This document shows positions 14,933 through 18,514 of a DNA stretch of 64,000 bases, piece after piece. Origin of the DNA: Pseudomonadota bacterium (lineage in GTDB: Bacteria > Pseudomonadota > Alphaproteobacteria > Sphingomonadales > SMXR01); NCBI GenBank assembly GCA_022566895.1, contig JADFIA010000001.1, positions 1 to 64,000 of the forward strand. The letters are read 5' to 3'. The notes below the pieces were generated by a model. That model was not told where the DNA came from and searched no databases. It saw only the letters and a list, made by a program, of their open reading frames with translations. The translations under genes were made by a program, and so were the position numbers. Positions within the stretch are counted from its first letter, which is position 1. Every line of letters begins with the position of its first letter.

Positions 14933-16027
14933 ATGAATGTCGTAAGTGAGTGGTACCGGAGAACCTTTGCGGACCCTCAGGTCGTGCTATTGGTGCTGAT
15001 TCTGATCGGTGCCCTGCTCCTTGTCAATTTCTTCGGCCAGATGCTCGCCCCGGCGATAGCAGCGGTAGTTATCGCCTTCCTGTTGGATGGCCCGGCCGGG
15101 CGGCTGCGGGAAAAGGGCCTTTCGAACTCACTTGCGGTGAGCATAGTCTTCGTGACTTTCCTGGCTCTTGCGGTGGTGGCATTTTTTGCCATCCTGCCGC
15201 CGATCACCGGTCAATTGGGACAATTCTTTCTGCAGCTGCCAAGCATGATGGCCTCGCTGCAGGAAACTGTTGTGGAGCTCTCGAGATCCAATCCTGAATT
15301 TTTCGACGAGACACAAATCGCAGATTTGATCGCCCGCCTGCAGAGTGAACTGATCGCCTTGGGCCCTGCCAATGTAAAGGCCTTGCTGGGCAATCTCGCT
15401 GGGGCGATCAGTCTGGTCGTTTACACGATCCTGGTTCCGGTGATGGTGTTTTTCTTTCTAAAGGACAAGAAACTGATCATGAGCTGGATTGCCGGATACT
15501 TGCCGAATCACAAACCCCTGGTTGACAAGGTCTGGGCCGAGGTGGTGGCAAAAGCCGGCGACTATGCCCGCGGCAAGGTCTACGAGATTTTCATTGTTGG
15601 GTTCGCGGCCTTTGTCGTTTTTTGGGCGATCGATTTGCGTTTTGCCGCCTTTCTGGCGCTGTTGACCGGTTTGTCGGTCATTATTCCCTATTTTGGCGCG
15701 GCGCTGGTAACACTTCCGGTCGCACTCGTGGCCTTTTTCCAATGGGGGATCGGCAGCGAAATGTTGCTCGCGGTGCTGGTCTATTTGGGGCTGCAGGCGG
15801 TCGACGGGAATATCTTGGCGCCGTTGTTATTCTCCGAAGTCGTCAAATTGCACCCTAACGCCATTATTCTTGCCATTCTAATCTTTGGCGGTCTCTGGGG
15901 CTTTTGGGGTGTCTTTTTTGCCATCCCGCTAGCCACCGTGGCGCACGCGGTCATCAAGGGCTGGTCGGAGCACAGATCCTTGGCCGGCGCGGTATCCCAA
16001 GCGGCCGATGATGAAAAAGGGGCTTGA
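14933..16027 (+). CDS. AI-2E/PerM family membrane transporter
   Basis: Inner-membrane protein of 364 aa with seven or eight hydrophobic segments in the usual family order: two at the N-terminus, a soluble loop (residues 90-150), then a C-terminal block. The last part has GLSVIIPYFGAAL, the glycine/proline-rich LGLQAVDGNILAPLLFSEVVKLHPN and FGGLWGFWGVFFAIPLA, all typical of the PF01594 family. Members are linked variously to autoinducer export, Na+/H+ exchange or unknown solutes, so no substrate is assigned. Its TGA stop lies inside the -35 element of the lysis-module promoter. The gene is chromosomal housekeeping, not part of that module. Confidence 0.88.
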   Translation: MNVVSEWYRRTFADPQVVLLVLILIGALLLVNFFGQMLAPAIAAVVIAFLLDGPAGRLREKGLSNSLAVSIVFVTFLALAVVAFFAILPPITGQLGQFFLQLPSMMASLQETVVELSRSNPEFFDETQIADLIARLQSELIALGPANVKALLGNLAGAISLVVYTILVPVMVFFFLKDKKLIMSWIAGYLPNHKPLVDKVWAEVVAKAGDYARGKVYEIFIVGFAAFVVFWAIDLRFAAFLALLTGLSVIIPYFGAALVTLPVALVAFFQWGIGSEMLLAVLVYLGLQAVDGNILAPLLFSEVVKLHPNAIILAILIFGGLWGFWGVFFAIPLATVAHAVIKGWSEHRSLAGAVSQAADDEKGA

Positions 16028-16052
16028 CAAGCGCACGCTTTTATTAGACTAT
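16024..16052 (+). promoter_or_regulatory. Consensus-like sigma-70 promoter of the lysis module
   Basis: A perfect -35 hexamer TTGACA (16024-16029) is followed by a 17-nt spacer and GACTAT as the -10 (16047-16052). The -35 overlaps the stop codon of the upstream transporter gene. The expected start point falls inside the palindrome that follows, about 75 nt before the endolysin ATG. It is the best sigma-70-like promoter I saw in the window, but the call rests on motif reading alone. Confidence 0.6.
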
Positions 16053-16053
16053 T

Positions 16054-16077
16054 TGGTTATAAACAGAATTATAACCA
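16054..16077 (+). promoter_or_regulatory. Operator-like palindrome TGGTTATAA-N6-TTATAACCA
   Basis: Two perfect 9-bp inverted half-sites are separated by ACAGAA and lie immediately after the -10 element, over the predicted transcription start. This is where a dimeric repressor would block initiation or early elongation. It does not resemble the alphaproteobacterial LexA box (GTTC-N7-GTTC). I found no second perfect copy in the window. The protein that binds it is unknown. Confidence 0.5.
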
Positions 16078-16133
16078 CCAATTAGGAAACTTTTGGGCAT
16101 TCGCTTCGGCTTGCTTTCTTTTGGGGAGCTATT

Positions 16134-16607
16134 ATGCACCTCTCACCGCATTTCACACTTTCCGAAATGACCAAATCGCAAATCGCCCTACGTCGCGGCA
16201 TCGGCAATTCACTCGACCCAGGAAATCCAGACGATGCGGAAGTGATCAACAATCTGAGGCTCCTGTGCCTTGAGGTTCTGGAGCCGGTGCGTGAGGCTTT
16301 CGGTATTCCCTTTGCGCCATCGTCCGGTTACCGCTCGCCGGCCCTTAATACGGCGTTGGGCTCCAAGCCCACCTCGCAGCATGTCCTGGGGCAGGCGGTG
16401 GACTTCGAGCTACCGGGAATCCCGAACTTGAAATTGGCACAGTGGGTCCGAGACCATCTTAAATACGACCAGCTCATTCTGGAGTTTCATGAGCCCGGCG
16501 AGCCCGCCAGCGGTTGGGTGCACGTTTCCCTTAAGGAGACGGGCAACCGTCGGCGCGAGCTGACCATCAACCGCAAAGGTGTTTTCCCGGGACTTGGCAA
16601 GGCCTGA
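16134..16607 (+). CDS. Peptidase M15-family phage-type endolysin (D-Ala carboxypeptidase-like)
   Basis: A 157-aa zinc peptidase that should cut peptidoglycan peptides. The M15 signature SQHVLGQAVDFE gives the first His and the Asp ligands and GWVHVS gives the last His; SSGYRSP matches the preceding conserved loop. No signal peptide is present, which points to a cytoplasmic endolysin that needs a holin rather than an exported cell-wall enzyme. GGGGAGC lies 7 nt before the ATG. It is followed by two terminators, a holin-like gene and spanin-like genes, an order found in phage lysis cassettes. No capsid, tail, integrase or repressor gene lies in the window. Confidence 0.85.
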   Translation: MHLSPHFTLSEMTKSQIALRRGIGNSLDPGNPDDAEVINNLRLLCLEVLEPVREAFGIPFAPSSGYRSPALNTALGSKPTSQHVLGQAVDFELPGIPNLKLAQWVRDHLKYDQLILEFHEPGEPASGWVHVSLKETGNRRRELTINRKGVFPGLGKA

Positions 16608-16645: not shown

Positions 16646-16671
16646 AGCCCGGAGTAGTCCGGGCTTTTTTT
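16646..16671 (+). terminator. Intrinsic terminator 1 inside the lysis module
   Basis: An 8-bp stem AGCCCGGA/TCCGGGCT closes on the 4-nt loop GTAG and is followed by six T residues. It stands 38 bp after the endolysin stop codon and before the holin-like gene. Confidence 0.85.
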
Positions 16672-16681
16672 ATGAACCAAC

Positions 16682-16708
16682 GGCCCGGGATTTCCCGGGC
16701 CTTTTTTT
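16682..16708 (+). terminator. Intrinsic terminator 2 inside the lysis module
   Basis: An 8-bp all-GC stem GGCCCGGG/CCCGGGCC with loop ATTT is followed by seven T residues. It begins only 10 bp after terminator 1 and ends 17 bp before the holin-like ATG. The tandem pair should strongly separate endolysin transcription from the downstream genes unless it is overcome by antitermination. Confidence 0.85.
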
Positions 16709-16725: not shown

Positions 16726-16926
16726 ATGTTATCCAAACTTTTGGAAGGCGGTCTGTTAAGTGGCCGCAAAACCTACCTGGCGGCGGCTGGCGTCGCAATC
16801 TCGGCGGTGATCGCCTACCTGGTCGGCGACGCCGGCCTGATGGACACCCTGACGACCGTTGGCGAGGCTCTCGGGATCGGGTTCCTGCGGGCCGGGGTGG
16901 CCAAATCCGCAACCCCTCAAACCTGA
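16726..16926 (+). CDS. Small holin-like membrane protein
   Basis: A 66-aa protein with a hydrophobic segment YLAAAGVAISAVIAYLVG (residues 17-34) and a second weaker one, TVGEALGIGFLRAGVA, near the C-terminus. Length, charge at the N-terminal end and position between an endolysin and a spanin gene suit a phage holin, which would open the inner membrane for the endolysin. GGAAAGGAAG precedes the ATG. The track ORF from 16579 would read through the terminators and is rejected. Its TGA overlaps the next ATG (TGATG). No specific holin family is recognised, so the call rests mainly on context. Confidence 0.6.
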   Translation: MLSKLLEGGLLSGRKTYLAAAGVAISAVIAYLVGDAGLMDTLTTVGEALGIGFLRAGVAKSATPQT

Positions 16927-17594
16927 TGGGGTTTTTAAAACTCGGTGGCCTCTTGGCCGCCCTGATGCTGATGGCGGCGGTTGGTTTTTTGTGGAAAGCC
17001 AACGAGCGAAAGGCGGCCGAACTTGGCACCCTGCGAGCCAGCCTGGCCGGTGCCGAGGCCACGATTGCCTTTAACGACCGCCTGGCCATTTACAGCCAGA
17101 GGCAAGCGGATGCGCTGGCCGCCCGGGATGCCGCCAACCAGAGAGCCATGGAGGCCCTTACCAATGAACGCAACAGATTGCGGGTCACCGTCGAAAGACG
17201 GGCCCTTGAAGATCCTTATGATTTTGGCGATAGTTTTGAGTTTGAGCTTGCCCGGCTGTTCTGTCTTTTCGAAGCCGGAAGTGATCGCGGTGCCCGCAAA
17301 GCCTGTAATCTTCATTCCCGCGAAGCCTACAAGCCCGAAATCGCCCTTACCCTTACCGTCACGCCCCAACTGGCCGAGCGGTGGGCCGAAGCCTGCGCCG
17401 CCGGAGAAGAACGATCAGAGGACTTCTGCCGTTGGTCGATAACCGGCTTTACAGCGCAAGGCGGGATCACGATCCTCAATCATCTGGAGCGGCTGGCAGC
17501 CTTTGCGCTGGCGCTTGAGGATCGGGCCGGTGTCCTGGAAGCCATGCTTCGCGAGCTGGCGGATCGGCCGCAGGCGGACCAAAAATCCCCTTAA
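16926..17594 (+). CDS. Rz-like inner-membrane spanin (i-spanin) candidate
   Basis: A 222-aa protein with an N-terminal membrane anchor (residues 4-24) followed by a charged, alanine-rich coiled-coil region to about residue 95 ([36 protein letters not shown]). This is the Rz topology. In phage lysis, Rz joins an outer-membrane lipoprotein to fuse the two membranes. The C-terminal 125 residues are longer than in lambda Rz. A candidate Rz1 lipoprotein is wholly nested in the +1 frame. The ATG at 16926 shares bases with the preceding stop. Its own stop overlaps the convergent cysK stop by 4 bp. Confidence 0.65.
17206..17442 (+). CDS. Rz1-like outer-membrane spanin lipoprotein, nested in the Rz-like gene
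   Basis: The frame gives 78 aa starting from TTG at 17206, or 74 from the ATG at 17218. It has a lysine, then a hydrophobic run [16 protein letters not shown] ending in a lipobox-like LPGC (Cys18), then a mature part with about 15 prolines in 61 residues ([20 protein letters not shown]). A short lipoprotein signal plus a proline-rich tail nested in the alternate frame of an Rz gene is the hallmark of Rz1. Against it, Pro at lipobox -2 is unusual and the ribosome site is weak. GC-rich shadow frames can be proline-rich by chance, but a lipobox at this spot is less likely by chance. Confidence 0.55.
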   Translation: MKILMILAIVLSLSLPGCSVFSKPEVIAVPAKPVIFIPAKPTSPKSPLPLPSRPNWPSGGPKPAPPEKNDQRTSAVGR

Positions 17595-18514
17595 GCCTCG
17601 GTCGGCAAGAAGCCTTCGATCGACAGGTAGCGCTCGCCGGAATCATAATTGAAGCCGAGGATGCGCGATCCCTCTGGAAGCTCGGGAATCTTTTTGGCGA
17701 TCGCGGCCAGACAGGCGCCCGAGGAAATTCCGATCAGACAGCCCTCCTCGCGAGCCGCGCGGCGGGCGTACTCCATGGCGTCCTGCTGGTGCACCAGGAT
17801 AACCCCGTCCAAGAGGTCCATAAAAAGGTTGTCCGGAATAAATCCGGCGCCGATCCCCTGGATCATATGCGGGCCGGGCTTGCCGCCGCTGATCACCGGG
17901 GAATGCTCCGGCTCGACCGCAAAAACTTTCAGATCCGGCCATTCTTTTTTCAAAAGCTGGGCGCAGCCGGTGATATGGCCGCCGGTGCCGACGCCGGTGA
18001 TGATACAATCGAGACCCTCGGGAAAATCGGCCAGGATCTCCTGGGCCGTAAAATTCCTGTGCACATCCAGATTGGCCGGATTGTCGAACTGGGAGGGCAT
18101 CCAGGCATTGTCCATGGTTTCAAGGATCTCCTCGGCCTTGGCCACGGCGCCGGGCATGCCCTTTTCCTTGGGGGTGAGGACAAATTCGGCACCATAAGCC
18201 AGCATCAGCCGCCGGCGCTCGATCGACATCGATTCAGGCATGACCAGCAGCAGCCGATACCCTTTCACTGCCGCCACCATGGCCAGGGCAACCCCGGTGT
18301 TGCCGGAAGTGGGCTCGACAATCACGGTGTCTTTGTTAAGGGATCCGTCCGCTTCCGCCGCTTCGATCATCGACAGCCCAATACGGTCCTTGATGCTGCT
18401 GGCGGGATTGACCCGCTCCTGCTTGATCCAGACCTCGTGGGTTGAGGGGAACAGTTTATTCACCCGGATGTGCGGCGTATTGCCGATTGTTTCAAGAATA
18501 TTGTCGGCCCTCAT
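17591..18514 (-). CDS. cysK: Cysteine synthase A (O-acetylserine sulfhydrylase)
   Basis: PLP enzyme that makes L-cysteine from O-acetyl-L-serine and sulfide in the cytoplasm. The PLP lysine sits in [10 protein letters not shown] (Lys42), the substrate loop is [10 protein letters not shown] and the phosphate loop is [10 protein letters not shown]. The C-terminal ISSGACLAA contacts the PLP ring. At 307 aa the length is standard. It follows cysE by 35 bp, so the two steps from serine to cysteine are co-transcribed and the proteins probably form the cysteine synthase complex. The stop overlaps the spanin stop on the other strand. Confidence 0.95.

Follow-up and report, generated by a model that had tools for sequence, protein, structure and literature searches.

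In Caulobacter crescentus, RogA, an HTH repressor of ~200 aa whose C-terminal part is LexA/CI-like but non-catalytic, holds the activator genes of gene transfer agents (GTAs), which are tame DNA carriers resembling viruses, off via inverted repeats in their promoter (PMC9632790). The Caulobacter XRE repressor CdxB, a protein of 132 aa that is encoded apart, represses both gafYZ and the lypABC lysis genes (PMC13236601), so the logic of double repression of GTA and lysis is already known. The lysis target of CdxB, LypABC, is an immune-like system and not an endolysin/holin cassette. In the RcGTA system, the cassette rcc00555/rcc00556 contains an endolysin gene distant from the GTA cluster and is co-controlled with it through activation by GafA and CtrA (PMC6363796). 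Homologues of gafA are annotated as DUF6456 (PMC9638019, PMC9765227).

We analyzed a window of 64,000 nucleotides (the whole stretch of DNA under study) and consider it likely that the palindromic region in front of its M15 peptidase endolysin gene is an operator through which the repressor of a GTA regulon ties lysis to GTA induction. Such an operator would probably keep cell lysis silent and in step with the GTA programme. The arrangement is similar to the RcGTA cassette in that a distant endolysin gene would be co-controlled with a GTA cluster; however, its operator is of the repressor type and a CtrA-like site is lacking (TTAA, the half of the CtrA box TTAA-N7-TTAA, does not occur in 16020-16140). 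By description, the proposed regulator is like RogA, in that an HTH repressor of ~200 aa is associated with inverted repeats at a GTA activator promoter. RogA binds GGAA-N4-TTCC sites, which were not found from perM to the M15 start, at only gafYZ and one other promoter, whereas the motif described here is TTATAACC-N5-GGTTATAA, the regulator gene adjoins gafA, and the sites reach terminase and lysis promoters. As with CdxB, a single XRE repressor would join GTA activation with host lysis. Lambda operators are paired dyads bound by CI-type dimers, and at OR1/OR2 the CI repressor occupies such dyads where the promoters of its own gene and of the lytic activator diverge. The GTA heads of the relatives in family f1 likewise combine a Cro/CI-type HTH with paired dyads whose centres lie ~24 bp apart, but the sequence is another one, the element is domesticated and host-encoded, and its targets are dispersed in the chromosome. 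We found no description of the motif, its three target classes or the gene order in the papers on GTA regulation that we consulted.

The features of the locus are listed in Table 1. The endolysin keeps the zinc ligands H83, D90 and H130 (invariant columns). The 65-aa hydrophobic ORF downstream has no family match and differs from the GTA_holin_3TM (PF11351) genes of the relatives. When the pairing of an endolysin with GTA_holin_3TM was looked for, the M15 gene was present and PF11351 was absent genome-wide; in G001-G004, PF11351 occupies the same locus, where the window has this other small hydrophobic ORF. The lipobox ORF is possibly an Rz1 gene nested in the Rz-like ORF. Because the genes examined around the cassette are housekeeping genes, there is no recognizable prophage. 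In the window the tandem stems follow the endolysin gene, and in G003 (L107) a terminator-like stem stands between operator and holin; such stems may be linked to antitermination, by analogy with Caulobacter GafYZ.

Table 1. Features of the promoter region and the lysis cassette in the 64,000-nucleotide window
Feature	Position	Strand	Basis or remark
perM-like AI-2E transporter gene	14933..16027	+	PF01594, E=1.2e-63; TGA stop (16025-16027) within the –35 hexamer
–35 hexamer TTGACA	16024..16029	+	sequence; kept in G003 at the orthologous place
Proposed operator site O1, TATTAGAC-TATTT-GGTTATAA	16042..16062	+	left half degenerate, right half consensus
–10 hexamer GACTAT	16047..16052	+	also the degenerate outer part of O1; GACTATTTGGTTA identical in G003
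Palindrome TGGTTATAA-ACAGAA-TTATAACCA	16054..16077	+	probably the inner halves of O1 and O2 that face each other; arms 16054-16062 and 16069-16077
Proposed operator half-site O2, TTATAACC-ACCAA-TTAGGAAA	16069..16089	+	half-site matrix; left half consensus, right half lost
Shine-Dalgarno GGGGAG	16123..16128	+	sequence
M15 peptidase endolysin gene	16134..16607	+	PF08291, 3.4e-16; phrog_894 endolysin, 2.4e-38
Two tandem intrinsic-terminator-like stems	16646..16708	+	interval between endolysin and next gene
65-aa hydrophobic ORF, possible holin	16728..16926	+	position and hydrophobicity only
222-aa ORF, weakly Rz-like spanin	16926..17594	+	phrog_2466/phrog_89, E=0.025-0.036
Out-of-frame ORF, lipobox LPGC and Pro-rich tail	17164..17442	+	translation of ORF 16981-17442
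cysK-like gene, conserved right border of cassette	17591..18514	-	PF00291; same order in L003-L005

A preliminary description of this DNA had read the region as a strong promoter, TTGACA-N17-GACTAT, followed at once by a palindrome placed over the predicted start site. All of these elements are present, with the 17-bp spacer, although one T separates GACTAT from the palindrome. The start site is expected at about 16058-16060, inside the left arm, as had been proposed. In contrast, the label 'strong' is not borne out, because GACTAT agrees with TATAAT at just 3/6 positions, and a promoter scan of the window did not list it. That the promoter itself is real is supported by a conserved footprint in G003, which belongs to another genus: before the holin gene at the perM junction, G003 has TTGACA-N17-GACTATTTGGTTA...ATAACC, and its perM stop codon likewise lies within TTGACA. 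The two sequences share 19 identical bases over the –35 hexamer, the –10 hexamer and the first half-site, whereas only 5/17 spacer positions are identical. Neither GTTC nor GAAC occurs in 16020-16140, in agreement with the earlier statement that the motif does not indicate SOS control through the alphaproteobacterial LexA box (GTTC-N7-GTTC).

The two 9-bp arms of the palindrome are perfect by direct reading. The pattern TGGTTATAA-N6-TTATAACCA with up to three mismatches occurs once in 64 kb (0.01 expected by shuffling) and is a single copy in the 2.15-Mb genome, so that the genome scan proposed in the preliminary description gave no further site. Among 401 genomes, the exact palindrome was found in the window only, with no copy in 400 relatives, and matches with two mismatches were as numerous as those of a reversed-pattern control; it was therefore rejected as the motif of a regulon. 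Its four matches in viral contigs were scattered and unrelated. Phylogenetic footprinting gave a divided answer, in that the promoter and the half-site GGTTAT/ATAACC are conserved and the exact palindrome is not. The palindrome scan is thus empty elsewhere because the half-site, and not the palindrome, is the conserved part.

We compared the locus with M15 loci of related genomes. Alignment over the genome contigs yielded 61 loci, none of them recognizable as the genus of the window; a search of the genome contigs with a single protein as query had yielded none. The order name used for this set, Sphingomonadales, is indirect and rests on the names of members of f3 (Sphingomonadales) and f8 (Emcibacter). 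The perM-M15-cysK locus of the window is orthologous to the M15/GTA-holin cassettes of f1, in which the order perM-M15 or perM-holin is conserved: perM-M15 is found in G001, G004, G006 and G007, with a GTA_holin_3TM gene after M15 in G001 and G004, and G002 and G003 have GTA_holin_3TM at the perM locus and no M15 gene. In f3, a solitary M15 gene lies between queD and ctaA, and G009 has GTA_holin_3TM there. Two operator sites of the kind described below precede a 179-aa M23 peptidase gene in G002, which lacks M15 (L102:7454-8077, G002:C152), and the encoded protein is a probable replacement GTA endolysin. In the M15 frame of G001 (L061/L006, G001:C171 near 9149), an in-frame TAA stands right behind the apparent start codon; the promoter sites and the holin gene are kept. 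The M15 genes of the Emcibacter-like family f8 (L013-L027) carry a conserved direct repeat, AATAGG-N4-5-AATAGGA, immediately upstream of their start codons.

Solitary M15 genes are repeatedly preceded by an A+T-flanked inverted repeat, ACC-N5-GGT. This element usually comes in pairs across the relatives, and a pattern search found exact copies of it at GTA loci. We trained a half-site matrix only on 15 GTA-head sites, which are not all independent since the training genomes are related, and tested it on lysis promoters outside the training set. By one arrangement or the other, all solitary cassettes in f1 and f3 carry sites. By contrast, M15 copies in prophage-like or other contexts (L056, L057, L059, L065, L066) had matrix sites in 0/5 cases. 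The M15 homologues of f8, f5 and viral contigs were discarded as motif carriers, with no motif before them. In the window, O1 scored 10.6 bits, the top single-site score in 64 kb (P = 0.01 in shuffles), and the everted pair scored 23.1 bits, ranking first over a next best of 14.5 (P ≤ 0.003). Single-site scores were weak in G004 (P = 0.096) and G003 (P = 0.13); for everted pairs the values were P = 0.023 and P = 0.003, respectively. The half-site consensus GGTTATWW is present intact in both orientations in the window, and the facing halves measure 22 bp end to end, compared with 24-26 bp in relatives. These results suggest that the palindrome probably consists of the facing inner halves of two sites with degenerate outer halves. 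Because the outer halves of O1 and O2 are poor, the site in the window keeps only half of the consensus arrangement. The earlier proposal of a repressor-type operator at the endolysin promoter is supported, and the unit is probably ACC-N5-GGT instead of the palindrome.

At the GTA heads, a gene for an XRE/CI-like regulator lies divergent from the DUF6456 gene (gafA), which is followed by terS and terL. The regulator has ~190-200 aa and an HTH_3 domain, and its best solved relatives, for the HTH part only, are lambda-like repressors, DdrO and SinR. It is present and divergent from gafA in 32/32 loci from five families. The exact motif AACC-N5-GGTT occurs in 19 of the 32 regulator/gafA heads, compared with 0-1 for other spacings. 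In two families, half-sites stand at three target classes, namely the regulator/gafA interval, the GTA terminase genes and the solitary M15/GTA-holin cassettes, and they are mostly paired ACC-N5-GGT inverted repeats. Sites in the regulator/gafA interval and upstream of terS were found in G001-G004, G006, G007, G009, G015 and G021. The centres of the paired sites are 24-25 bp apart in most f1 heads, and the sites contain a presumed –35 (TTTACC) and –10 (TATAAC). The promoter footprint, the motif common to three kinds of target and the linkage of the regulator gene to gafA are direct observations.

Repression is indicated because the sites overlap the –35, –10 and start and cover the CI-like gene's own promoter. 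We propose a sigma-70 promoter whose –10/+1 region is covered by two binding sites of a dimeric Cro/CI-type regulator. By blocking RNA polymerase, this regulator would repress gafA, the GTA cluster and the lysis cassette as well as the gene that encodes it. Upon its relief, possibly in stationary phase or under stress, gafA and the endolysin gene would be turned on together. The sequence supports a repressor-type operator, which the preliminary description had assigned to a dimeric repressor; we infer that the sites are bound by this regulator, that its effect is repression and that the organism of the window has kept it. The alternatives named there, a relic phage operator or the site of a host regulator, would merge into one, the regulon of a domesticated prophage (GTA).

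An alternative with some limited plausibility is that the protein bound at these sites is the activator GafA (DUF6456), acting by itself or together with RNA polymerase, and that the promoters are switched on and not off. GafA could be the binder because RcGTA GafA binds the promoters of GTA genes, of gafA and of lysis genes (PMC6363796), the same three target classes as those found here, and in Caulobacter the palindrome used by GafZ lies in the –35/–10 spacer (PMC11150451). However, the regulator's own promoter has such sites too, and the sites overlap –35/–10/+1, which is the usual place of a repressor. Paired ACC-N5-GGT dyads 24 bp apart fit a CI-type dimer, and the –35 hexamer of the window is perfect, unlike that of the activator-dependent Caulobacter promoter.

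Alternatively, the GTA locus and its regulator may have been lost, leaving the palindrome as an operator without a ligand, which we consider rather unlikely. In the 86%-complete genome bin of the window, none of the GTA markers searched for (gafA, the regulator, TerL, TIGR02217 and the GTA holin) was found, the outer half-sites are degenerate, and the GTA clusters of f1 are eroding. However, the essential gene ileS, which lies within 6-17 kb of the GTA head in G001, G003, G004 and G006 (4/4 f1 genomes in which linkage is readable), also has no orthologue in this bin, which makes a missing contig more probable than loss of the locus. The regulator/gafA locus is most likely on an unbinned contig of this organism. 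Furthermore, the –35, –10 and half-site are conserved with G003 and the inner halves are perfect, and in G003 the outer halves are degenerate as in the window, yet the regulator and gafA are kept.

A palindrome that arose by chance, or that is the site of a host regulator of some unrelated kind, would accord with the uniqueness of the exact palindrome in the genome and its absence from 400 relatives apart from control-level two-mismatch matches, but it is very improbable given that half-sites recur with strict N5 spacing before orthologous cassettes and GTA heads and that the orthologous promoter is conserved. Finally, we rejected as extremely improbable that the palindrome works as a hairpin in the RNA, at the 5΄ end of the endolysin transcript. 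For its composition, the sequence in the window has a favourable fold (–7.5 kcal/mol, z –4.3), but the inner segments of orthologous loci are no more foldable than their shuffled versions (z –1.35, 0.17 and –0.74), conservation follows the half-site letters and not pairing, the expected start lies inside the left arm, and all Rfam families score below the gathering score.

We further analyzed the state of the GTA in f1. TIGR02217 (g12) is absent genome-wide in 8/8 genomes. At the GTA locus, terS, terL and a shortened portal gene remain in G004 and G006 (L224, L128), G003 (L225) has a protease remnant besides, and G001 (L223) has a protease gene and the capsid gene, the latter in G001 only. Because these clusters are truncated, particle production by the programme may have ceased. 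Between G006 and G007, a single pair with few changes, dN/dS was 0.12 for gafA, 0.15 for terL, 0.19 for the shortened portal gene and 0.30 for M15, and these genes therefore appear to be maintained. Particle genes are largely gone in f1, yet the regulator and gafA, the operators, and the genes for terminase and lysis persist. It is conceivable, though we regard it as unlikely, that the operator controls a lysis or DNA-processing programme kept after particle loss, for example altruistic lysis or DNA release.

The tie between GTA production and host lysis is known in only two model bacteria, and the authors of the Caulobacter work could not predict a binding motif for GafYZ. An operator common to gafA, terminase and lysis promoters, together with a regulator gene in 32/32 loci, which include finished genomes of the largest family of the order, probably Sphingomonadaceae, offers a direct handle on this tie. 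It predicts a repressor, its regulon and lysis genes that lack annotation, such as the M23 peptidase gene of G002.
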